64,000 nucleotides of DNA from Azonexus sp. (lineage in GTDB: Bacteria > Pseudomonadota > Gammaproteobacteria > Burkholderiales > Rhodocyclaceae): positions 62,001 through 126,000 of the forward strand of contig NZ_JAKLLH010000001.1 in the NCBI RefSeq assembly GCF_023150235.1, given 5' to 3'. The position numbers were made by a program, and so were the translations under genes. A model generated the notes under the pieces. The model was not told where the DNA came from. It searched no databases and saw only the letters and a program-made list of their open reading frames with translations. This document shows positions 1,108 through 11,479 of this stretch, in pieces; positions within the stretch are counted from its first letter, which is position 1; each line of letters opens with the position of its first letter.

Positions 1108-2052
1108 TTACCCTGCGGAACGGCCGAGGTAGGCCTGGGCAATCAAGGGCTTGACGGCATCAAGCTCGGCCGGGGTGCTGAGCGAGCATTCGACATCGCC
1201 GGTTCCAAAGTGCCCTTGCTGGCTGACGTCGCGCGCATTGCCTGGCAGCGGCGCCAGCGCTTGCGGGGCCAGGTGCAGATAGAGCAGCAGCCGGTTTTTT
1301 TGTGCGATGACGGTGGCAAAGTTCTTCAGGCGTTTGAAGGCGACATACAGGCGCAACTCCTTGCGCTGCACATCGTCGCCCAACGACAACACGTAGTCTT
1401 CCAGCGAAGCCAGCAGCTCGGTGAGCTGCGGCGGCAGCAGCGGCAGCCACTCGGCAAACGAGCGGTCGCGGGGCGCCGCCTTGGGCGCTGCAGCTTCGGT
1501 TACTACTGGCTTGCTTGCCTTGCCAGCGCTCGCCTTGCTGGTCGCGTTGTTGGTCGCATTGGCCAGTTCCAGCAATAACAATTCGTCGCCGAAACGGCGA
1601 TAGCGAATCAGCTCGATATTGCGATTGATCTGCTGCACCGCATGCCCGTCGTAGCGGGTGAAATCGGCCGCGATGCACACCAGGCGCGGGGCGCTCCAGT
1701 CGATGGCATCAGCCGCCGCCTTGCCGAGCATATCCATCACCAGCAGCTTGAACTCGGCCTGGTGGTCCATCAACCAGTCGAGATAAAACAAACCCTGGTT
1801 GATCACGTTCTCTCCGACCGAGCGCTTGTACTCCAGAATCACCGGGCAATTGTTCTCGTCCAGCCCCAGCGAATCAATCCGCCCGCCGTGGGTCTTGCCG
1901 GTCGAGTACTCGGTCGCCAGAAAGCGGATGCCGAGCAAGGGCTCAAGATTCGCCTCGATCAGGGTTTGCAGCGGCTTTTCGAGGTCGGAAGCGTTGCCTT
2001 GCAGTTCGCTCGCCTTGCCGGCGGTGAGGCGGAAGAGTTTGATGTCGCTCAT
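1108..2052 (-). CDS. PD-(D/E)XK endonuclease-like protein with C-terminal DUF5655 domain
   Basis: This is a 314-residue protein. Residues about 20-140 resemble a NucS/DUF91-type nuclease fold: GGRIDSLGLDENNCPVILEY supplies an Asp, followed by E-x-K in LEYKR, the usual PD-(D/E)XK triad. An Ala/Lys/Ser-rich linker (KASAGKASKPVVTEA) leads to a C-terminal DUF5655 domain (RDRSFAEWLP to the end). I chose the ATG at 2052 (MSDIKLF); an upstream start at 2082 would overlap the ligase gene, and the paralogous copy at 9696 starts at the same residue. It is the last gene of the long defence operon, 13 bp behind the RNA ligase. The substrate is not deducible. Confidence 0.75.
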   Translation of the reverse strand: MSDIKLFRLTAGKASELQGNASDLEKPLQTLIEANLEPLLGIRFLATEYSTGKTHGGRIDSLGLDENNCPVILEYKRSVGENVINQGLFYLDWLMDHQAEFKLLVMDMLGKAAADAIDWSAPRLVCIAADFTRYDGHAVQQINRNIELIRYRRFGDELLLLELANATNNATSKASAGKASKPVVTEAAAPKAAPRDRSFAEWLPLLPPQLTELLASLEDYVLSLGDDVQRKELRLYVAFKRLKNFATVIAQKNRLLLYLHLAPQALAPLPGNARDVSQQGHFGTGDVECSLSTPAELDAVKPLIAQAYLGRSAG

Positions 2053-2065
2053 GGGGGTAGTCCCT

Positions 2066-2794
2066 TCAGCAACCGGAGACATCGTCGACGTAGCGATGTT
2101 CGGCTACCGGCTGCGCCGGCTTCAGTGCATTCCAGCGCAATGAGCGCGAACGCCAATGGTCGTCAATGCTTTGCACGAAATCAGGTTGGACAATTTTTGC
2201 TCGCGCCAGCAGCCAGTCCTTATCCTCCTGGCGTAGATAAATGCCTTCCAGAGGACCGTCACGATAGGTGCTTGTCGATGTGTGCAAGTGTTGCTCGATG
2301 CTTGCCAGTGGATATTGGCCGTTGCCGAGTTGACGAATGTGCTGCAGTCCCAGCTGGTCAAGTAGGGCATCACGCCGCGCCGTGCTCCAGAATTTCTTTT
2401 CATGCCGGTCGTACACATCGAAAGCAAGAAAATAATCTGGCAGCACGGAATACTCCAGACTATGTACTGCCGCGACCCATTCTCCGAAAAGAATCAGGGA
2501 CTCACCCAAGGCATCAAACAAAGCCTCTTCGTGCCTTGCCAGCCAGTTGTTCAGCCGGGAGAACTGCCCGATAAACGGACGGGGCAGGTACTGGCCGCGA
2601 TTCTGCGCTCGCAGCGTGCCATCATTGCCCACCGAAAACCCGAGATTCGCTCCATCGACCTTTTCTTCCAGAACCACAGGTCTGGCCAGAAAAGCTGCGA
2701 CCTCAGCCCGGCTCAGAACCTTGTCGTCACGCGGCTTGCCCTTGCCGAGCCAGGCGAGATGCGGCGTATGGGGGAAGCGGAAAAAATCGCTCAC
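2066..2794 (-). CDS. RNA ligase family protein (Rnl2-like nucleotidyltransferase)
   Basis: This 242-residue protein carries the ordered motifs of the covalent nucleotidyltransferase superfamily. Motif I is LEEKVDGANLGF with Lys45 as the expected AMP-accepting residue; motif III is ILFGEWVAA, motif IV GPLEGIYLR and motif V ARAKIVQPDF. The small size and motif spacing fit the PF09414 RNA ligases that seal nicked or cleaved RNA, rather than DNA ligases. I chose the GTG at 2794 (VSDFFRFPHTPHLAWLG) because it overlaps the PIN gene stop as GTGA; longer starts would run about 100 bp into that gene. Translational coupling to a PIN nuclease suggests it repairs or modifies the RNA that nuclease cuts. 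That role is inferred. Confidence 0.85.
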   Translation of the reverse strand: MSDFFRFPHTPHLAWLGKGKPRDDKVLSRAEVAAFLARPVVLEEKVDGANLGFSVGNDGTLRAQNRGQYLPRPFIGQFSRLNNWLARHEEALFDALGESLILFGEWVAAVHSLEYSVLPDYFLAFDVYDRHEKKFWSTARRDALLDQLGLQHIRQLGNGQYPLASIEQHLHTSTSTYRDGPLEGIYLRQEDKDWLLARAKIVQPDFVQSIDDHWRSRSLRWNALKPAQPVAEHRYVDDVSGC

Positions 2795-3318
2795 TTCCGG
2801 TTTTTCTCCGCAAATTTGGTTTCGGACCATTCCGGAATGATCGCTTCCAGGCATAGCCCGGCGGTTTGTAGCTCCGACGCCCATCCATGCCAATCGGTAT
2901 CGCCAGCGAAGGCGATAGTGGATTCTCCATGAATCGTCAGGGCATCGAGTGCTGCTGCTACCATTTTCCGATCTGCGCGATCATGTATGACTGTCTGAAG
3001 CGGCTCATCCAGGACACCGTTGCCGTTCTGATCATAATCAACGCTGACCAGATCGACCGCACAGGTATCCCATTTGTATTTCACGATTTGGCGGCCGAAG
3101 TCGTTGAATCCGAGTTTCTTTGCGTACTCAGCTTCAATGCCACCCTGCCCATCAAGAACAAGATGACTTTCCGACTGTTGAAAATCTGATAACCAATCCC
3201 AGACTTTTTTCCTCAAAACAGGATCGTCGGGTGTTGCATCACGCGCAATCGGCGACCCAGCATCAATGGCGCTGGCAGCAATCAATACGTTTGTATCAAC
3301 GACGTAACGGGTCTTCAT
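2791..3318 (-). CDS. PIN-like nuclease (ATPase partner, copy 1)
   Basis: This 175-residue protein has PIN-domain acidic positions: YVVDTNVLIAA (Asp8), a central HDRADRKMVAAAL and a late TIAFAGDTDW. PIN proteins are metal-dependent RNases and are commonly toxins. It starts with an ATG overlapping the ATPase stop (ATGA, 3315-3318) and ends overlapping the RNA ligase start (GTGA, 2791-2794), so all three are translationally coupled. It is longer than typical VapC toxins (about 130 aa); an insertion lies between the first and second acidic motifs. Target RNA is unknown. A second ATPase+PIN pair occurs at 9693-11479. Confidence 0.7.
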   Translation of the reverse strand: MKTRYVVDTNVLIAASAIDAGSPIARDATPDDPVLRKKVWDWLSDFQQSESHLVLDGQGGIEAEYAKKLGFNDFGRQIVKYKWDTCAVDLVSVDYDQNGNGVLDEPLQTVIHDRADRKMVAAALDALTIHGESTIAFAGDTDWHGWASELQTAGLCLEAIIPEWSETKFAEKNRK

Positions 3319-4664
3319 TTTGAACTCCCCGCACGCTGCCGTTCAAACATCAGTCGGGCTTGCTCGCGTGTTTCACCCAGTGCATCACCAAAAAACATGG
3401 GGGGCCATTCGGTGAGGCGACCGTAGGGGTCTAATTCCAATGGTTTCAGCTTTGCGTCAGCGCCAGCACGCTCAACAAAATAGAGCAGGCACTGATCCCG
3501 CGTGCTGCTGTCCCGTGCGACCAGAGTTTGCAAGCGGCGGAAAAGATGCTCGGAATGCGTTTCGACGACGAACTGTATTTTCCGCTCGCGACTTACTTCA
3601 ACGAACAGTTCTGCAAGAACAGCCTGCGCCAGCGGATGCAAGTGAATTTCCGGCTCTTCAAGGATTATGGTGCTCCCAATGGGAGCAAAAAAAGCCAAGG
3701 TAATGACAGGAAGCACTTGCGATACGCCAATGCCCACATCTCTCAGATTGGCGGCGATTCCATCCTTGTAAACGACCACTTCATAACGAGTGGAGTGGCC
3801 CAATTGCTTGACTTCAATCTTCTCTGCAACGCCCATTCGTGCAAGCCAGGCAGAGACTTTCTGGATAATCTGCGCAGTGTCATCGTCCTTGTTTTTTGAT
3901 CGAGACAAGGCGCTTGCCAGAAGCGCATTAATGACTTCGGCTCCATCAATTCCCAATTCTCCAGGCCTGCTCTTGTTCCAGGTGTAATCCCGCTCTGGCT
4001 TACGGCGCAGAGGCCCCAGGTAAGCAATCGCTTCAAGTTCGCGACGCAAGGCAAGACTGATGTCCTCGACCATCGGGCCGTCAGTAGCGAGCAATTGAAT
4101 TGCCTCGGCAGGGAGTGCAATTGAACGCTCCGGTGCATACATACGGCTTTTTCCTCGTGCTTGGTCTCCGACCATGATCGAATACGCGCCCTTGTCGCGC
4201 CGGAGAGCTCGATAGACGGCAGTATCGCTGCTCAACGCCAATGCTTGCACAACGGCTGACCCGGCTGAAGTCCTGCCATACGTCGCACTGAACTCGCCGG
4301 ATGGGAGGCGTTGTTTGGCACTCGCCGAATTGGAATCTGGATGCCTGAACTTGAAACCCAATTCGAACTGGCGCGGAGATGCGTTATGGGTCAATACATC
4401 GTCAAAATGCCCGAAGTTGAAGTAATCGTTAGCTTCGTTGCCGCCAAGGTTTAGATGAACGCTGCGATCTGGTGATGCGACAGTCTGCTTTAACAACAGC
4501 AAGGCCTGTAGCAGTGACGATTTGCCTGATGAATTTGTACCCAGAAGCATGGTTACCGGCGCCAACGGGATATTGATTCGGCCGACTTGAGATTGGCCTG
4601 AAGCATCAAGGTATTCTGCATCTCGCCATGCCTTGAAATTCCTTAAGGACAATTGGGTAAACAT
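3315..4664 (-). CDS. AAA15/DUF3696-type ABC-like ATPase (copy 1)
   Basis: This 449-residue protein starts MFTQLSLRNFKAWRD, typical of SMC/OLD-like ATPases. Walker A is LLGTNSSGKSSLLQALLLL, Walker B is IILEEPEIHLHPLAQAV, and an H-loop follows (FVVETHSEHLFRR). The C-terminus (LELDPYGRLTEWPPMFFGD) matches DUF3696. Such ATPases are sensors or regulators in defence modules such as OLD, PARIS AriA and RloC. The start has a GAGGAG ribosome site and lies 16 bp after hsdS. The gene overlaps the PIN gene by 4 bp. It probably senses invasion and controls the PIN effector, but no Toprim or nuclease domain is visible in the protein itself. Confidence 0.85.
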   Translation of the reverse strand: MFTQLSLRNFKAWRDAEYLDASGQSQVGRINIPLAPVTMLLGTNSSGKSSLLQALLLLKQTVASPDRSVHLNLGGNEANDYFNFGHFDDVLTHNASPRQFELGFKFRHPDSNSASAKQRLPSGEFSATYGRTSAGSAVVQALALSSDTAVYRALRRDKGAYSIMVGDQARGKSRMYAPERSIALPAEAIQLLATDGPMVEDISLALRRELEAIAYLGPLRRKPERDYTWNKSRPGELGIDGAEVINALLASALSRSKNKDDDTAQIIQKVSAWLARMGVAEKIEVKQLGHSTRYEVVVYKDGIAANLRDVGIGVSQVLPVITLAFFAPIGSTIILEEPEIHLHPLAQAVLAELFVEVSRERKIQFVVETHSEHLFRRLQTLVARDSSTRDQCLLYFVERAGADAKLKPLELDPYGRLTEWPPMFFGDALGETREQARLMFERQRAGSSK

Positions 4665-4680: not shown

Positions 4681-6093
4681 TCAGCGCTTCGGGTTTTGAC
4701 TAAGGCGTACTTTACTTTCTGTCACGGTCGCGCCTGGTTTATTGATACGTTCCAGCAATACGCTGGCGGATTCATCGTTGGGGTCTTGCGGCACCAACTC
4801 GCCGCGAAAGGCCTTGGCCAGGAGCAGCGGGGAAAGGCGTTGGGCCTGGGTGCGGGCGGCGGCGTGGCGGGCTTCGATGCGGTCGGCCATCAACATGAAG
4901 CGTTGAAGTCGACGAATGATCTCATCTTGCTCTGCTAACGGAGGAATTGGCACTGGCAGAGCCCGACAGACCTCAAGGGTCAAGTTCCACTGGCCTGCTG
5001 TCGCCTTGGATTTTGAGATCGCGTGTTCCACCAAACCCGTACTCAATAAGCAAGAAGCCAGATAGGCAGAGTGCAAGTTTGGCCCTGGTCGAAATCTTGC
5101 GATGGCTTGATTGATGTTCCATTCCGGGTGTGTCTCAGGAACCACCGAAACTTTTCCAAGTGGAGGCCCAACGATGTTCATCAGCACATCACCAGGTAGA
5201 GCAATTGATCGCTTCAATTCTTCTGCGTGTGTCCGCGACTCGACAAACGTTGGATCAATTGTAAAGTCCAGTTTGCCGTTGAATCCGAGGTTGTAAACTT
5301 TGATATATGGCACCTCTCCACTGCCACACCGCATCTTCTCTTTGGAAGGTGTCGTCCCCTTCGTAATAAAGCCGCACTCATTTTCCGCCGTAGCCCATCG
5401 CCAACCAGCAGGTATTGTCCATAGACCGTTGGTCTGGGTTTGTTTCAGGGAGCCATCCTCGTCTCTCCAATCATCTGTCAGTCGACCGGAGACCGCAGCA
5501 CTCAAGACCGCCTGTCGAAACCGCTTGAGCAAGGCGGGAATGGCGTCGAGGCGGTCGTTGCAGGACTGGATGCGGGCAAGCAGTTGGTCGAGTTGGTCAG
5601 CGATGCGGGTTTGCTCGTTCCGTGGCGCCAGCACGAAGGGCGCTGCTTTGGCTGAATCAGTACCCAAACGCGGCATGTTCATGCCGTGGCTCTCTGCCTC
5701 GACGTATTTCAAGAATGCCGGGTGCTTTAGCCAATAAAACAAATACCGGCTATCGAGCTGCGCGCCTGCCTCAATTGGCACAATTTCTGTCGTACAGTAG
5801 CCGGGCTGATCGGCAATCAGCACTTTGTTGAGGTAGGGGCGGAGCTTTCCGTAAAGTATGTCACCGGCCTGAAAACGGTTTTTGGTGCTCTTTGATTGCC
5901 GTTCGGAAAAAGTCATGCGCTGGAGTAGCTTTGAACTGTCTTTCTCGATGTCCTCCAGTTCAAGAACCCAATCTTCGCCAGAAATCTGTGACGGCTCGGC
6001 CTTCTCTGTGCGGCCATAGTTAACGACCGCCCCCAGATTGGTTAATACCCATGTCGATGGAAGCTCATCTGGGTTCAACGGGATATCACTCAT
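4681..6093 (-). CDS. hsdS: Type I restriction-modification specificity subunit HsdS
   Basis: This 470-residue protein has two target-recognition modules. The first starts LPSTWVLTNLGAVVNYG, and the second TIPAGWRWATAENECGFI followed by a GTTPSKEKM segment. Each is followed by a helical spacer (FVLAPRNEQTRIADQLDQLL; IPPLAEQDEIIRRLQRFML). It would direct HsdM to a bipartite DNA site. The ATG at 6093 overlaps the stop of the DUF1016 gene by 8 bp; a GTG two codons upstream is an alternative. With hsdR truncated in this operon, the likely product is an M2S methyltransferase. Confidence 0.93.
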   Translation of the reverse strand: MSDIPLNPDELPSTWVLTNLGAVVNYGRTEKAEPSQISGEDWVLELEDIEKDSSKLLQRMTFSERQSKSTKNRFQAGDILYGKLRPYLNKVLIADQPGYCTTEIVPIEAGAQLDSRYLFYWLKHPAFLKYVEAESHGMNMPRLGTDSAKAAPFVLAPRNEQTRIADQLDQLLARIQSCNDRLDAIPALLKRFRQAVLSAAVSGRLTDDWRDEDGSLKQTQTNGLWTIPAGWRWATAENECGFITKGTTPSKEKMRCGSGEVPYIKVYNLGFNGKLDFTIDPTFVESRTHAEELKRSIALPGDVLMNIVGPPLGKVSVVPETHPEWNINQAIARFRPGPNLHSAYLASCLLSTGLVEHAISKSKATAGQWNLTLEVCRALPVPIPPLAEQDEIIRRLQRFMLMADRIEARHAAARTQAQRLSPLLLAKAFRGELVPQDPNDESASVLLERINKPGATVTESKVRLSQNPKR

Positions 6094-7144
6094 CCTCACC
6101 CCCCGTCAACAACACCCCGCGCCTCGCCAACCGTTCCCTTGCCTCGACCAGCGCCGCATGCAGGCGTTGTTCCAGTTCTGCCTTGGGCGGCAGTTCGGTC
6201 CAGTATTCGGCGACGGTGATGCCGTCCTTGTGCATTTGCAGTAGTTCCACTTGTTCACGGCTGGATTCGGCGCAGAGAATGAGGCCGATGGGGGTTTCTT
6301 CGCCGGGCTGGCGCTCATGCTTGTCCAGCCATTTTAGGTAAAGCTCCATCTGGCCCTTGTGGGCGGCCTTGAAGCGGCCGAGCTTGAGTTCGATGGCGAC
6401 CAGCCGGCGCAGGCGGCGGTGGAAGAAGAGCAGGTCGAGGTGGAAATCCTCGCCGTCGATGATCATGCGCTTCTGCCGTTCGACAAAGGCGAAGCCTCGG
6501 CCGAGTTCGAGGATGAAGGCTTCGAGCTGGCGCAGGATGGCGCTTTCCAGGTCGGCTTCGTCGTGGCCCTGGTGCAGGCCGAGGAAATCGAGGAAGTGGG
6601 GGTCCTTGAAGACGACGGCGGGTGCGTTGGCGTCCGCACTCAGGGCAGCCAGTGCATCGCCTTGGGCGCTGGCAATTTCGCTGCGCTCGTAAGCCTTGCG
6701 TTCGATCTGGCGGTGCAGTTCGCGCACGCTCCAGCGTTCGGCCACGCATCGCCGGGCGTAGAAGTGGCGGGCTGGCTCGCTTTTGAGCGGCAGCAGTTGC
6801 AGGAAGTGGGTCCAGCTCAATTGTCGCATCAGCGATGCGACAATTTCGGCCTCCGGGAAGGCCTGGGCAAACTGCACCATGCGGCGCAGGTTTTTGGCCT
6901 CGAAACCACGGCCGAATTCGCCGGCCAGGCGTTCGCCAAGGCGGTTCATCAACTGGGTGCCGTATTGGGCGCGTTCGCCGCCCAGCACTTCGCGGCTCAG
7001 GCGCTGGCCGATGCGCCAGTAAAGTTGGCTTAATTCGGCGTTGACCGTAGCTGCCAGGCGCTGGCGGCTGTTAGCGATCAGCTCGCGTAGTTCGTCGTGC
7101 AGGGGTTCCAGCGGCAATGCCGGGGGCGAGGCTGGCCCGCTCAT
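6086..7144 (-). CDS. DUF1016/YhcG-family PD-(D/E)XK nuclease
   Basis: This 352-residue protein has a DUF1016 N-terminal winged-helix region (residues about 15-175; LYWRIGQRLSREVLGGERA, FARRCVAERWSV-like segments). It is followed by a YhcG-type nuclease domain (DLLFFHRRLRRLVAIELKLG), whose D...ExK pattern is the expected active site. Members of this family are often inserted in type I R-M loci. The start overlaps hsdM by 4 bp, and the end overlaps hsdS. Because the HsdR motor is broken here, this nuclease is a candidate replacement effector, but nothing in the sequence proves that. Confidence 0.88.
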   Translation of the reverse strand: MSGPASPPALPLEPLHDELRELIANSRQRLAATVNAELSQLYWRIGQRLSREVLGGERAQYGTQLMNRLGERLAGEFGRGFEAKNLRRMVQFAQAFPEAEIVASLMRQLSWTHFLQLLPLKSEPARHFYARRCVAERWSVRELHRQIERKAYERSEIASAQGDALAALSADANAPAVVFKDPHFLDFLGLHQGHDEADLESAILRQLEAFILELGRGFAFVERQKRMIIDGEDFHLDLLFFHRRLRRLVAIELKLGRFKAAHKGQMELYLKWLDKHERQPGEETPIGLILCAESSREQVELLQMHKDGITVAEYWTELPPKAELEQRLHAALVEARERLARRGVLLTGGEDE

Positions 7145-8721
7145 GCCGCAACTCCATCGCCGCTTGCGTCGTCGGGCAGCAGATCGTCGAGTGCCAGATC
7201 GGGGTCTTCGCCGAGTTCTTCAAGCAGCGCATGCAGTTCGGCAACGGCAGCATTGAGTTCGCGCAGTGCAAGCCAGGCGACCAGGGCGGGTTCGTCGCGT
7301 TGGGCTTCGCTGCTTTCGGCGCTGTCGTCCTTGAGCCAGCTGATGTCGAGGTTGTCGCCCCGGGCGGCAAGCTGCTCGCGGGTGAATTTGCGCCAGCGGC
7401 CGTTTTCGCCGCTATCGACGCGGCGGGCGAGGGCAGCGGGTCCGCCTTGCGGGTCGTCGCCAAAGACGTCCTCGAACTTGTCACGCGGCGTCTCGGCGGG
7501 CGCATCGGCCGGGGTGCGGAAGTAATCGCGGCTGAAGGGGGTGCGCTTGCCGAACTGGGGCATGTTGGCGCGCATGTCGTACACCCAGGTTTCTTGAGTG
7601 TTGCCTTTATCGGTTTCGCCCCGGGTGAAGAAGAGCACATTGGTCTTGACGCCCTGGGCGTAAAAGATGCCCGTGGGCAGGCGTAGGATGGTGTGCAGGT
7701 TGCACTTCTCCATCAGGTCGCGGCGGATGTCGGTGCCGATATTGCTTTCAAAAAGTACGTTGTCGGGCAGGACGACGGCGGCACGGCCGCCGGGCTTGAG
7801 GCCGCGATAGATGTGCTGGAGGAAGGCGAACTGCTTGTTGCTGGTGAGGTAGGTGAGGTCGCTGCGGGTGGGCAGGCCGCCACCTTTTTTGGTGCCGAAG
7901 GGCGGGTTGGACAGGATCGGCGAGGCCAGCGGCAGTTCCTTGTATTTGTCGCTCAGGGTGTCGCCGTAGGTGACGCCGCCTTCGATGCCGTGCAGCAGCA
8001 TGTTCATCAGCGCCAGGCGGTGCGTGTCTTGCACCAGTTCCATGCCGTAGAAAGTCAGTTTGCGGTAGCGGCGCTGGCTGGCGTCGTCGAGGCTGTCGAA
8101 ATCGTTGTGGCGACGCAGGTAGTTGTTGGCGGCAATCAGAAAGCCGCAGGTGCCGGCGGCCGGGTCTTGAATCACGTCATCGAGTTGCGGTTTCATCACG
8201 GCGACGATGGCGTCGATCAGGTCGCGCGGGGTGAAGTACTGGCCGGCACCGCTTTTCTTTTCGCCGGCGTTGCGTTCAAGCAGGTCTTCGTAGAGATCGC
8301 CGAGGTCGTCGCGGTCGACGCTGTACCAGTCGAGTGCGTCGATGTCGGTGACCAGTTTGCTCAGCGTGGCCGGCTTGGTGATGAAGGTGTTGGCATTGGC
8401 GTAGACCTCCTGCACCGCGCCGCGTGCGTGCAGGCCGTAGTCAAGCAGCATTTCCTTGTAGGTGTCGAGGCGTTCGGGGGCCGAGGCCTTGAGCAGGTCG
8501 TCCCAGCGGGTGCCTGGCTGCTCAACCGGCGGCTCGTCTTTCTTGGGGCGCTTCCAGACCTTGAGCCGGTCTTCCTGCCCGGTTTCCTTCATCATCTTGA
8601 GGAAGAGCAGATAGGTCAGTTCACTTAGATACTGGTGGTAGGTTACCCCATCGTCGCGCAGCACATGGCAGAGCGACCAGAGTTTGGCGCCGATATCGAT
8701 GGCGGCGGTACGGTTGGTCAT
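7141..8721 (-). CDS. hsdM: Type I restriction-modification DNA adenine methyltransferase HsdM
   Basis: This 526-residue protein has an N-terminal helical HsdM_N region (SLCHVLRDDGVTYHQYLSEL) and an N6-adenine methyltransferase core. The SAM motif I is DPAAGTCGFLIA and the catalytic motif IV is LSNPPFGTKKG. I chose the ATG at 8721 (MTNRTAAIDIG) rather than the in-frame start at 8766, which would overlap the HsdR remnant. It is coupled to DUF1016 by a 4-bp overlap and to HsdS downstream. It is expected to methylate adenines at the HsdS-defined site. Confidence 0.95.
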   Translation of the reverse strand: MTNRTAAIDIGAKLWSLCHVLRDDGVTYHQYLSELTYLLFLKMMKETGQEDRLKVWKRPKKDEPPVEQPGTRWDDLLKASAPERLDTYKEMLLDYGLHARGAVQEVYANANTFITKPATLSKLVTDIDALDWYSVDRDDLGDLYEDLLERNAGEKKSGAGQYFTPRDLIDAIVAVMKPQLDDVIQDPAAGTCGFLIAANNYLRRHNDFDSLDDASQRRYRKLTFYGMELVQDTHRLALMNMLLHGIEGGVTYGDTLSDKYKELPLASPILSNPPFGTKKGGGLPTRSDLTYLTSNKQFAFLQHIYRGLKPGGRAAVVLPDNVLFESNIGTDIRRDLMEKCNLHTILRLPTGIFYAQGVKTNVLFFTRGETDKGNTQETWVYDMRANMPQFGKRTPFSRDYFRTPADAPAETPRDKFEDVFGDDPQGGPAALARRVDSGENGRWRKFTREQLAARGDNLDISWLKDDSAESSEAQRDEPALVAWLALRELNAAVAELHALLEELGEDPDLALDDLLPDDASGDGVAA

Positions 8722-8738
8722 GGTGGTTACGGTGTTTC

Positions 8739-9445
8739 TCAGGCAGATTTGGGTTGGGTGACCCAAAGTGCGTCATTAAATGCGGCGAGTATGGGTTGCA
8801 ACTGGCCGTTGAAAATCTTGTCGAGCCGACTGAAGCCGCCGCCTTCGCGTTTGAAGATCAGGTCGGGGTCGTCGAGCGCCGCGCAGTCTACCAGCACATT
8901 GGCCTTGGTCTGCGCGGCGATGCGTTTGAGCCATTCGCGTTGCGGGGTGGTCCAGGGGGAGCCACCTGGTGGATGGGCGAGAAGCTGCTGCAAGGCATGG
9001 TCGACGCGCTCGCTATAAGGTAATAAGGGGTCGCCGATGGCAGCTTGGCGGATATAGCCGACGATGCGCGCGGCGATGTCCTGATTGGTGAGTTCGCGCC
9101 AGGCAGTGGCCAGCCGGGTTTCGCTGAAGCCGGCGGCATCCAGCGCCAGTGCCAGCTCACGCAGCTGGGCACGGGTCAGGTCGCGGGGGCGGGTGAGTAC
9201 GGTGAGCAGGGCGGGGATTTCGTTGCTGTGGCGCTTGAGGTAGTCGCTGAACTCGCGCAGGTACTCTTCTGGCTTGTGGGCTTGTCCATAGCCGCGCTCA
9301 ATCCGGTCAACGCGGTCCGGGTGGTCGGAAACATAAACCGGGCGGGGCGTGCTGCTGGTTTGCCGGTCGAGTAGTTCGCCCAGGCCGGGACGCTGGCTGA
9401 TCCAGTGGGCGAGATCGGCGAGTGGCAGGGTTTTTAGTTTTCGCG
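8739..9445 (-). pseudogene. hsdR: C-terminal remnant of type I restriction subunit HsdR
   Basis: About 235 residues match the C-terminal region of EcoEI-type HsdR proteins. They run from LKTLPLADLAHWISQRPGL through a helical segment with VDRIERGYGQAHKPEEYL and end near GGFSRLDKIFNGQLQPIL. An intact HsdR is roughly 800-1000 residues with an N-terminal nuclease and a DEAD-box motor; none of that is present. Upstream sequence passes directly into the 3' part of a duplicated DUF5655 gene. An ATG at 9458 lies inside that foreign segment, so a short fusion protein could still be made, but it would lack every catalytic domain. It sits 17 bp upstream of hsdM. Confidence 0.85.
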
Positions 9446-9696
9446 ACGACGGTGGCAAAGTTCTTCAGGCGTTTGAAGGCGACATACAGGCGCAACTCCT
9501 TGCGCTGCACATCGTCGCCCAACGACAACACGCAGTCTTCCAGCGAGGCCAGCAGTTCGGTGAGCTGTGGTGGCTGCAGCGGCAGCCACTCGGCAAACGA
9601 GCGGTCGCGGGGCGCCGCCTTGGGCGCTGTAGCTTCGGTTACTGCTGACTTGCTCGCCTTGCCGGCGGTGAGGCGGAAGAGTTTGATGTCGCTCAT
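9440..9696 (-). pseudogene. Internally deleted and truncated second copy of the DUF5655 endonuclease gene
   Basis: It starts MSDIKLFRLTAGKAS exactly like the intact gene at 1108-2052, then jumps to SAVTEATAPKAAPRDRSF and runs to about FATVVAK before homology ends. Roughly 145 residues, including the whole PD-(D/E)XK part, are missing. The deletion joins two copies of a short CTCGCCTTGCC-like repeat that encodes the KAS repeats in the intact gene. The 3' end is fused to the HsdR remnant. The ATG overlaps the PIN gene stop by 4 bp, so it was once a normal cistron of its own ATPase-PIN cassette. At nucleotide level the two copies are nearly identical, so the duplication is recent. Confidence 0.88.
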
Positions 9697-10151
9697 GGGG
9701 CGGACCGCTCAAATCCCTGCAGATCGCTATCCAGCGTCCAGATTCTGACGCTACTTAACGGATGCCGGGCACAGCAGGTCTCCCATTCCTTGATGATCGA
9801 CAAATCGCCAAAGCCAATCCCTGTAGTGGCTCGATCTGGAAAATCGGACAACCAATTCGATACTTGTGTATTGCTCGGGAAATTCACCGGCTGCCAAGGG
9901 GCTTCTCCTTGTAGGGCCTTACGAATTTCGTCAACAAAGCGTTGGGCTGCGCTCCGGCGTTTAGCCCCCTCCGCGACGTGCGCAATGTGATTTCCTGTTT
10001 CCACAATGGCCGCCATTGGCAGCAGCAGATGGTCGTTCTGTTCAAGATGTTCAGAGAGAGTCTGAAGGACGGCTTTCCGATGCTGATTGCGTCCGTGTAC
10101 ATCAAGCACGTTTAACAGAATCGACGTATCGACAAGAACAATCGCACTCAC
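9693..10151 (-). CDS. PIN-domain nuclease (ATPase partner, copy 2)
   Basis: This 152-residue protein has PIN acidic motifs at IVLVDTSILLNVLD (Asp8), VETGNHIAHV, GIGFGDLSIIKEW and RIWTLDSDLQGF. The GTG start at 10151 overlaps the stop of the ATPase gene (GTGA). Like copy 1 it is expected to be a metal-dependent RNase, but the two PIN proteins share little beyond the fold, so they probably have different targets. Unlike copy 1 it is not followed by an RNA ligase; the deleted DUF5655 gene comes next. Confidence 0.75.
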   Translation of the reverse strand: MSAIVLVDTSILLNVLDVHGRNQHRKAVLQTLSEHLEQNDHLLLPMAAIVETGNHIAHVAEGAKRRSAAQRFVDEIRKALQGEAPWQPVNFPSNTQVSNWLSDFPDRATTGIGFGDLSIIKEWETCCARHPLSSVRIWTLDSDLQGFERSAP

Positions 10152-11479
10152 AGATCACCTCCCTGAAGAATGGAGTTGAGCCAGTCGCGCGCCCGTCGTT
10201 TGCGCTCTTCACTGCCGGGGTGGTTCTTCACGAATCTTTCCAGAGCCCCTGTTGTCATCAAATGCCCGAGACTACCCTGTGCCAATAGTTCTGGAACATC
10301 GGGAATGTTCTCCATGCGGACCAGACAACTTGCTCCTGAGGCTTGATCCCGGTAGCAAAAAACCACATCGGGTACCGCGGCATCAGGTAAAGCGTCCAAC
10401 ATGGCAGGGTTGTGGGTGGATAGCAGCACACGCAAGTGCCTCCGCTCGGCAATCGAGCGTATACAAGACAACAGATGGTGTGCTCGGCTCGGGTGGACTC
10501 CATTGTCGATTTCTTCAATAACCACCAGGCTGCCTTCGGCGGCAGAAAGCATCGCGGCAGCAATCGCCAGAACGCGCAGGGTGCCATCGGAAAGCAGCGA
10601 AGCATCGTAGTCACGTCGTTCGCCACCGAAGGTCTCTTGCAGCTTGACCATTACCTCGCCGCGTGGCCCTTCAAGGAAATCCAGCCCGGCAATATCCTGT
10701 TCTGGCAGGCTTTGAATGAAATCGAGGATCGCTCGACGATTCTCAACATATGACGCAACGCTGGCGTTCGTATCCCGGCCCCATAGCCGGAGCAGAACGC
10801 TGGAAAGATTGGTGCCGTCGCCGAGTAAGCGCTTGTCGGACACAAAGCTGTATTCGCGCATTCGTGCCGGCACGGGGTCGAGAAAAAGAATGTTGGATAG
10901 CAAGCTCTGGTAGCGGCGCGCGACTATGGGAATTGTCTCCTGCGCCTGTTTATGCCCTGCAGCGAATCGTGCTGGCGAATCAAGCTGCGCGAAAATCGCC
11001 ATTTGGTCGCTGCACAACAACGGGTGTAACTTGTTTCGCCCTTTTAAAAAATTGTTATAAGCAACGCCAGCGTCAGTACTCAGCCCCTGTGAGGGCTGGT
11101 CAAGATCGTAAAGCGGCACTTTCTTGCCTGCGTCCTCAACCCGTTCACCCACCACATGCAGTTCGCCATCGCGCAGCCCGACCTGCATTCGCAGCGTTCC
11201 CCATTCGGCATCGTCAAGATCGCAACCCAGTCCAAAAACCGTTTCTCCGCGATAGCACAAATCCTCTACACGTCCGCGTACGATGCGTTCAGCACTATTC
11301 ACGGTGTACTGGATTGTGGAAAGTTTTTGTCCTTGTGCCAGCCAGGAGAGCAAGCGCAGGCCCTCAATGGCATTACTCTTTCCCGCTGCATTGGCACCAA
11401 TGAGGACCGTTAGCGGTCCCAAGGGAAGGCGAGCTTCACGGTAGCTCTTGAAATTCTTCAGGGTAAAGGCAGTCAGCAT
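10148..11479 (-). CDS. AAA_21/AAA15-type ATPase (copy 2)
   Basis: This 443-residue ABC-like ATPase starts MLTAFTLKNFKSYREARL. Walker A is LIGANAAGKSNAIEGLRLL, the signature region SLLSDGTLRVLAIAAAML, Walker B LVVIEEIDNGVHPS, and the H-loop LLSTHNPAMLDAL. The C-terminal stretch reads GHLMTTGALERFVKNHPG. It is the first gene of the 10.4-kb minus-strand operon, so its promoter should lie in 11480-11720. Fused translationally to a PIN nuclease, it is likely the sensor/regulator of that nuclease. It is a different subfamily from copy 1 (no DUF3696 tail). Confidence 0.85.
   Translation of the reverse strand: MLTAFTLKNFKSYREARLPLGPLTVLIGANAAGKSNAIEGLRLLSWLAQGQKLSTIQYTVNSAERIVRGRVEDLCYRGETVFGLGCDLDDAEWGTLRMQVGLRDGELHVVGERVEDAGKKVPLYDLDQPSQGLSTDAGVAYNNFLKGRNKLHPLLCSDQMAIFAQLDSPARFAAGHKQAQETIPIVARRYQSLLSNILFLDPVPARMREYSFVSDKRLLGDGTNLSSVLLRLWGRDTNASVASYVENRRAILDFIQSLPEQDIAGLDFLEGPRGEVMVKLQETFGGERRDYDASLLSDGTLRVLAIAAAMLSAAEGSLVVIEEIDNGVHPSRAHHLLSCIRSIAERRHLRVLLSTHNPAMLDALPDAAVPDVVFCYRDQASGASCLVRMENIPDVPELLAQGSLGHLMTTGALERFVKNHPGSEERKRRARDWLNSILQGGDL

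Follow-up and report, generated by a model that had tools for sequence, protein, structure and literature searches.

The window analysed here, a 64,000-nucleotide stretch of an Azonexus sp. genome (contig NZ_JAKLLH010000001.1) to whose positions all coordinates refer unless another locus is named, carries three overlapping genes on its minus strand, transcribed in the order ATPase, PIN-fold nuclease and RNA ligase over positions 4664–2066. ATPase and PIN genes share four bases (ATGA), as do PIN and ligase genes (GTGA). The ligase starts at the GTG at 2794, a longer listed open reading frame from a TTG being a mechanical extension. A first-pass annotation made from the DNA letters had described these overlaps together with intact catalytic motifs, both of which were confirmed, and had suggested a cut-and-seal RNA immune module.

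Protein families and catalytic residues

The last gene of the trio encodes a predicted ATP-dependent RNA ligase that matches Pfam family PF09414 (RNA_ligase, E = 3.1e-31). Residues K45, D47, G48, R66, E105, F125, D126, E183, G184 and K200 are invariant in 81 of 81 sequences, comprising the window and the 80 best of 459 stretches with ligase relatives found in a species-genome collection of 84,980 genomes (hereafter the 80 loci). Family match, residues and fold agree with nucleotidyltransferase motifs I–V and a nucleophilic lysine. The nearest solved folds to the predicted structure (predicted local distance difference test score, pLDDT, 90) are the Naegleria nick-sealing RNA ligase, archaeal RNA ligases, the trypanosome editing ligase and T4 Rnl2. 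A DNA ligase reading was down-weighted because RNA ligases lead this ranking (best E = 3e-7), with DNA ligases appearing from 6.5e-4; the one exception is 3qwu, an Aquifex structure with the title putative DNA ligase (E = 5e-6 and 7e-6 at ranks 24 and 26), which is also the best hit (0.0015) in a weak sequence search of solved structures. The ligase consists of the nucleotidyltransferase domain and a short tail, with motif I at residue 45 and about 40 residues beyond motif V. T4 Rnl2 has an extra C-terminal domain, and Rnl5 enzymes (Naegleria, Deinococcus) carry an N-terminal OB domain; the 242-residue protein in the window holds an Rnl-type catalytic domain only and was placed in neither subfamily. 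It matched no PADLOC model at E 0.01.

The ATPase matches PF12476 (DUF3696, E = 4.5e-9), AAA_15 and AAA_21 in Pfam, and HEC-03B as its best PADLOC model (E = 1.6e-84). Residues G42, N44, S45, G47, K48, S49, H370 and H373 are invariant in 62 of 62 sequences, and E336 and E339 are present in 61.

The PIN protein is matched weakly by the PADLOC model HEC-03A (E = 1.2e-9), which gives 9e-19 for a relative at locus L002, of the type 2 introduced below, and 7e-76 for a pair without ligase (L115). Its predicted structure (pLDDT 95) is nearest, weakly, to the PIN-type RNase P HARP (E = 8e-3, probability 0.97; Halorhodospira and Thermococcus enzymes), followed by VapC, SMG6, exosome and other PIN domains interspersed with unrelated folds, and a sequence search of solved structures gave no meaningful match. 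D8 is present in 71 of 72 sequences (one gap), and E64, D113 and D116 in all 72. No HEPN or anticodon-nuclease domain occurs among the Pfam matches, the nuclease being a separate protein with a PIN-like model, and neither a Toprim (AriB) nor an HNH (PtuB) effector domain was found, the effector model lying nearest to PIN folds. Assignment to VapBC was rejected, as the PIN gene in the window is flanked by ATPase and ligase with no gene in between. Assignment to HARP/RNase P was rejected as well: PF08745 (PIN_5) matched none of 61 PIN members at E 0.01, and a HARP search in four genomes with the triad found none. The domains proposed by the first-pass annotation stand for ATPase (PF12476) and ligase (PF09414); the PIN protein is recognised through HEC-03A and a weak HARP-like fold, with no Pfam match. 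Its remark that the set was not recognised as a named system needs amending, as ATPase and PIN correspond to the PADLOC candidate HEC-03, to which the ligase adds an unlisted third gene.

Distribution and exchange of the three genes

In 78 of the 80 loci the gene immediately before the ligase is a PIN homologue (exceptions L004 and L047), and in 65 a homologous ATPase is found upstream of PIN. The fifteen loci without this ATPase comprise L004 and L047, with other genes in its place; six with PIN and ligase only (L016, L017, L019, L031, L033, L078); six in which the contig ends before the ATPase position (L006, L011, L021, L024, L041, L049); and L058, which retains just the end of a PIN gene and has no ATPase in ~1 kb of upstream sequence. 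PIN is split in L005 and the ATPase in L063. The four-base overlap of PIN and ligase genes is frequent (26 of 71 measured).

Because the 80 loci are nearest relatives, two evenly drawn genome samples were added, an order sample (399 genomes) and a phylum sample (398 genomes) that overlaps it, G000 being in both. Ligase matches at E 1e-10 were found in 19 of 399 genomes of the order sample. Eleven were strong (E < 1e-50, actually < 1e-80) and all eleven adjoin PIN; ten of them have the ATPase as well, and in G096 a contig end interrupts the locus. The other eight ligases are divergent or fragmentary with no PIN beside them; the PIN profile matched 13 genomes of this sample, 11 of them with ligase. 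The phylum sample yielded ligase matches in 17 of 398 genomes, 12 of them below 1e-50, of which 11 adjoin PIN and ATPase; the remaining one (G401) is a ligase remnant of 145 residues. Pooling both samples gives 22 different genomes that carry a strong ligase, 21 of which have PIN beside it; two of the strong ligases (G107 and G567) have one stop codon each within the match. The HEC-03A model matched 13 genomes of the phylum sample, ten with the ligase next door, and missed the trio member of G478. A PIN gene lacking both partners was not seen where enough sequence was at hand, in a PIN-directed search limited to the two samples. The triad noted in a single stretch of DNA is present widely elsewhere, and the order ATPase-PIN-ligase recurs across phyla, far beyond chance.

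The trio is also carried by mobile elements. Among 28 plasmid records with a ligase match, the triad was checked in four, and its order is found on plasmids of Aeromonas salmonicida, Azotobacter, Tistrella and Rhodococcus (Gamma- and Alphaproteobacteria and an actinobacterium). The whole trio is present on three contigs of a viral collection (L118, listed also as L183; L180; L182), and in L117 the ligase lies at the contig edge, the available sequence covering its downstream side. In L118, portal and terminase genes, presumably of P2 type, lie a few kb from the trio, which is probably temperate-phage cargo there. The ratio of nonsynonymous to synonymous substitution rates (dN/dS) was below 0.35 in 25 of 27 comparisons (21 gene comparisons from seven triad pairs, six from three pairs without ATPase), the exceptions being the PIN genes of L052 and L072 (1.2, synonymous changes being nearly absent) and one pair at saturation. 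From these ratios, the trio genes look to be under selection for protein function.

For the 61 loci with three complete genes (window included, incomplete loci dropped), PIN identity to the window separates 24 loci at 34–100% (type 1) from 37 at 21–27% (type 2), and ATPase identity gives the same division (46–100% and 29–35%). Trees were built by a quick method, and the types were named before the ligase tree was built. The PIN tree and the ATPase tree each contain one change between types, with 100% support. The types are mixed in the ligase tree, with 12 changes, at least four of them forced by well-supported branches, and the approximately unbiased (AU) test rejected type 1 as a single ligase clade (p = 1e-48); type labels are more clustered on this tree than shuffled labels, for which the mean was 19 changes. 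Pairwise distances correlate at r = 0.89 between ATPase and PIN, a value that partly reflects the two-type split, and at 0.40 between ligase and PIN. The window and L002 share 74% identity in the ligase, 25% in PIN and 32% in the ATPase, L045 and L062 share 88%, 23% and 35%, and in such pairs ligases that are 73–88% identical stand beside PINs only 20–25% identical. L002 retains HsdR-like and DUF1016-like stretches resembling those flanking the trio in the window, which points to an exchange of ATPase and PIN on the spot, with the ligase retained. The tree and identity patterns show ATPase and PIN evolving together and the ligase separately from them, with repeated crossing of the ligase between types. 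A PIN-binding antitoxin should track its PIN, whereas an enzyme that joins a common RNA break need not; such similar ligases beside such different PINs favour a ligase acting on cut RNA rather than as a PIN-binding antitoxin.

Divergent sister ligases (~25–40% identity where measured) have different company. At 15 of 25 such loci a nearby protein bears P-loop kinase-like (AAA_33) and HD domains, the domains being named by Pfam in two of the 15 and assigned in the remainder by similarity to one of those; the ten loci without kinase are viral contigs, and the fragmented G328, where no kinase was seen, was left out. Two divergent plasmid ligases that were examined (Variovorax, Pseudomonas) likewise have a kinase in place of the triad. 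The domain content of this HD-kinase fits healing of 5'-OH and phosphate-bearing 3' ends, and an end-healing role is probable. No HD-kinase was found around the 80 main loci, in flanks of up to 8 kb. PIN enzymes are metal-dependent and expected to leave 3'-OH and 5'-phosphate ends, so a healing step would be unnecessary for the trio, and the absence of the kinase from all 80 loci is what is expected if PIN leaves directly sealable ends. AriB of the PARIS system leaves a 3'-OH after cutting tRNA (PMC12409363), and the ends left by metal-independent RNases require kinases and phosphoesterases before such ligases can act (PMC7824862).

Genomic surroundings

Neighbouring genes were scanned on the same strand (at least 90 residues, within 350 bases; longest-open-reading-frame calls, with false genes possible). 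Ten of 42 upstream neighbours match the Eco57I DNA-methylase family and one matches HsdS, others being transporters and regulators; among 43 downstream neighbours, seven match HNH_2 and two GmrSD. Clustering places the methylase family, two members of which match models for DrmMI and type IIG, in 16 of the 80 loci, and HNH_2-cluster genes in 15. HsdM-like genes occur in three, including Zoogloea L001, which has the same operon as the window. At six gammaproteobacterial loci (L042, L043, L061, L075, L046, L041) ATP synthase genes come right after the trio, which at four of the six lies behind a Na+/H+ antiporter gene, and the site before the ATP synthase genes is a recurrent insertion place.

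The trio of the window lies downstream of type I restriction-modification genes (Table 1). Just the C-terminal 239 residues of HsdR are kept, and no other full match to the HsdR family model PRK11448 was found in this genome, so the type I system of the window may be active in methylation but not in restriction; in Zoogloea L001 the HsdR stretch at the corresponding place is longer. Directly upstream of the hsd genes (9693–11479) lies a second ATPase and PIN-like pair, matching PADLOC PDC-M07A/B (E = 7e-197 and 8.5e-61); its ATPase is 22% identical to that of the trio, and the PINs have no clear similarity (best E = 0.016). The DUF5655/NucS-like gene 3' of the ligase is shared with L001, with a partial match downstream in L011, and its product is a possible fourth partner in the lineage of window and L001. 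A built-in tRNA gene as PIN target was rejected, ARAGORN having found no tRNA gene in the window.

Table 1. Trio genes and neighbouring features, in positions of the window.
Feature	Position	Strand	Remarks
DUF3696/OLD-like ABC ATPase, HEC-03B-like	3315..4664	-	449 amino acids, ATG start; predicted sensor/gate; type 1 lineage
PIN-fold predicted RNase, HEC-03A-like	2791..3318	-	175 amino acids, ATG start; predicted effector; D8, E64, D113, D116, D140
ATP-dependent RNA ligase (predicted)	2066..2794	-	242 amino acids, GTG start; nucleotidyltransferase domain only; K45 nucleophile
DUF5655/NucS-like predicted nuclease (PADLOC PDC-S18)	1108..2052	-	downstream of ligase; accessory, outside core
HsdS, type I specificity subunit	4681..6099	-	context
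DUF1016/YhcG PD-(D/E)XK protein	6086..7144	-	context
HsdM, type I methyltransferase	7141..8766	-	context
HsdR C-terminal remnant (EcoEI_R_C)	8739..9458	-	239 amino acids; context

The two loci without PIN are single cases. The ligase at L047 is preceded by an ATPase of a different kind, matching PD-T4-4_A (5e-203), and by a protein of 190 residues matching PD-T4-4_B (2e-93), a pair among the systems recovered in an experimental E. coli anti-phage selection (PMC9519451) and resembling WonAB, a translation shut-down system (PMC12137116). A C-terminal ligase fragment (L047:9998–10156) lies downstream of the intact ligase, before an HNH_2-cluster gene, and is possibly the scar of a cassette exchange. 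PD-T4-4_B was also found in one plasmid, with no annotated ligase, and in the genome of the window itself a PD-T4-4 pair is present elsewhere (L175, C24, 4746–6814), without ligase. At L004, MqsR-, MqsA- and SecB-like genes (L004:2422–3849) stand between hsdS and the ligase, behind hsdM and hsdS. The six loci with PIN and ligase only belong to Aquabacterium-type Burkholderiales and share chromosomal neighbour clusters, one in all six and others in three to five, including a secretion-type ATPase and a peptidase as judged by eye. A profile search found no ATPase of the family in these six genomes, mostly drafts or metagenome-assembled genomes, and was positive in 5 of 5 control genomes. These loci indicate that PIN and ligase are able to serve outside defence islands, possibly as a domesticated RNA cut-and-seal pair.

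Interpretation and comparison with known systems

That the trio is a co-inherited set, in which the ligase evolves like a substrate-level repair partner, is supported by the comparisons above. The reading that we rank first, and regard as probable by a small measure, is a mobile defence-type module in which an ATPase-gated PIN RNase is accompanied by its own RNA-resealing ligase, acting as brake or reset. For cutting and sealing, this reading draws on the chemistry of the enzyme families and on the pattern of ligase exchange; for an immune role, it draws on homology to HEC-03 and similar pairs, on the ligase beside PD-T4-4 and on carriage by plasmids and phage contigs. Several bacterial defence systems are known to use RNases that cut tRNA. 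At rest, the ATPase would hold PIN inactive or low; a phage signal would alter the ATPase and free PIN, which would cut cellular RNA, probably tRNA or other translation RNA by analogy with PARIS, Septu and WonAB, and phage growth would stop. Metal-dependent PIN cleavage would leave 3'-OH and 5'-phosphate ends that the ligase could join with ATP, with no kinase or phosphatase, a step that agrees with the lack of any healing kinase in the vicinity. The co-translated ligase could then brake leaky cutting and reset the cell after the signal ends, with growth arrest setting in only when cutting outpaces sealing. We propose more tentatively, and with less confidence than for the module as such, that the system is self-reversing: directly joinable cuts in translation RNA would be resealed from within the operon, giving a tunable and reversible arrest rather than suicide, and the ligase would be a portable repair unit serving two diverged ATPase-PIN pairs and, at least once, PD-T4-4.

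Several observations weigh against a defence module with its own ligase. Defence-type context is frequent yet in the minority, and many trios lie among housekeeping genes; the ATPase-less PIN-ligase pair itself looks like RNA housekeeping. ATPase and PIN occur without ligase in G013, G133 and G414 of the phylum sample and in the viral contig L181, and part of the ATPase-PIN correlation follows the type split. Only one of the 80 loci combines PD-T4-4 with the ligase; among 378 genomes PD-T4-4_B turned up in four, that of the window included, and none of the four has the ligase in the stretch examined, so that PD-T4-4 with ligase as a common arrangement was not supported. The PIN assignment is weak, with Pfam PIN models matching none of 61 PIN members (window included) and no Foldseek match of the PIN model at E ≤ 0.001.

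The housekeeping-like loci lend themselves to a rival explanation, in which PIN and ligase form an RNA-processing pair for maturation or circularisation, like that proposed for HARP-Rnl3, and the ATPase is a later, defence-related addition. Besides the shared chromosomal neighbours of the Aquabacterium-type pairs, it can call on the constraint of their genes (dN/dS of 0.025–0.12 for ligase and 0.12–0.26 for PIN in three pairs), the best, though weak, structural match of PIN to HARP and the published co-occurrence of HARP and Rnl3 genes (PMC12153264). We consider it unlikely, if the strongest of the rivals, given an ATPase in 65 of 80 loci, scattered occurrence (11 of 399 and 12 of 398 genomes), carriage on plasmids and a phage contig, and two strongly diverged ATPase-PIN types.

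Slightly less likely again is a ligase that works as a protein antitoxin or scaffold, binding and silencing PIN, with catalysis secondary. As in toxin-antitoxin pairs, the ligase gene directly follows PIN, often with the four-base overlap, and it is kept in the six ATPase-less loci, which were found via the ligase and hence are not independent. Catalytic residues invariant in every sequence would be needless for a mere binder, however, the mismatch between ligase and PIN identities is hard to fit to a specific interface, and the ligase is absent from some PIN-ATPase pairs; a simple toxin-antitoxin reading was down-weighted on the first two of these grounds.

A ligase that guards against other ribotoxins, or mends RNA cut by phages or competitors, with HEC-03 as a mere travelling neighbour, would agree with the probable end-healing kinases beside sister ligases and with L004, where the ligase follows MqsR-MqsA-SecB-like genes and PIN is absent. 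It appears improbable in view of the near-obligate, fixed-order linkage to PIN (78 of 80) and of the missing kinase, without which cuts by metal-independent ribotoxins are not directly joinable. That PIN and ligase process nicks in DNA or RNA-DNA hybrids, in support of restriction, is very improbable: type I restriction or DNA methylase genes adjoin a minority of loci, Rnl5-type ligases can join an RNA 3'-OH to 5'-phosphate DNA, and 3qwu is among the structural and sequence matches, but the nearest folds are RNA ligases and, for the nuclease, RNase P or VapC-type PIN, and the Eco57I methylase family accounts for only 10 of 42 scanned upstream neighbours.

If the module with its own ligase is real, a bacterial immune operon carries a matched RNA ligase, and RNA-cutting immunity can be reversible by design. 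This would explain how cells tolerate a leaky effector and would allow a direct test of resettable abortive infection. From the exchange pattern, one would expect the ligase to recognise cut RNA and not the nuclease, which could make it a tool for fishing out the target.

Among known systems, HEC-03 (HEC-03A PIN and HEC-03B ATPase) is closest, as both trio proteins match and the genes are adjacent; the difference is the ligase, unlisted in PADLOC, which is next door in 10 of 13 genomes with HEC-03A. One paper naming HEC-03, as a list entry, and no phage-protection experiment were found in the literature searched. PARIS, Septu, WonAB and PD-T4-4 share the two-gene logic of ATPase sensor and nuclease effector, but their effectors are Toprim, HNH or PD-(D/E)XK proteins, whereas the trio has a PIN effector and, in addition, an RNA ligase. 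Septu cuts tRNA-Tyr (PMC13096335), and WonAB shuts down translation (PMC12137116).

The first-pass annotation had drawn an analogy to PrrC and RloC, which is useful for the logic of the trio. PrrC provides ATPase-controlled tRNA cutting from a gene beside type I restriction genes, and phages answer tRNA-cutting immune RNases with a kinase plus a ligase, T4 Pnk-Rnl1 reversing the damage by RNA ligation. As models, PrrC and RloC serve poorly: both are HEPN nucleases, and undoing PrrC damage requires kinase and ligase in T4 (PMC12409363). In that case the ligase is phage-owned and kinase-assisted, whereas the trio ligase sits in a bacterial operon with no kinase nearby; with no HEPN anticodon-nuclease domain fused to an ABC ATPase, the trio was not counted among them.

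The pairing of HARP, a PIN_5 RNase P, with Rnl3 resembles the trio in co-localising a PIN nuclease and an ATP-dependent RNA ligase, HARP also being the best, weak fold match. The families differ (no PF08745; TIGR01209 at 23 bits against a cut-off of 137), and the HARP-Rnl3 pair lacks an ATPase, is mostly divergent in orientation and occurs in extremophiles (PMC12153264). Pnkp-Rnl-Hen1 and other kinase-ligase repair operons likewise provide a bacterial RNA ligase for ribotoxin damage (PMC4411300), and the sister ligases of the trio family pair with HD-kinase proteins as these operons do; the 80 trio loci have no such kinase in their flanks (Hen1 methyltransferase was not searched for separately) and keep the nuclease inside the operon. 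The literature searched, with subscription papers mostly outside it and a prior mention possible, yielded no description of the three genes together, and neither the two-type exchange nor PD-T4-4 with a ligase was found in it. The pair of ATPase and PIN is a known candidate; new here are the ligase as conserved third component, its exchange between two types and the PD-T4-4 case.

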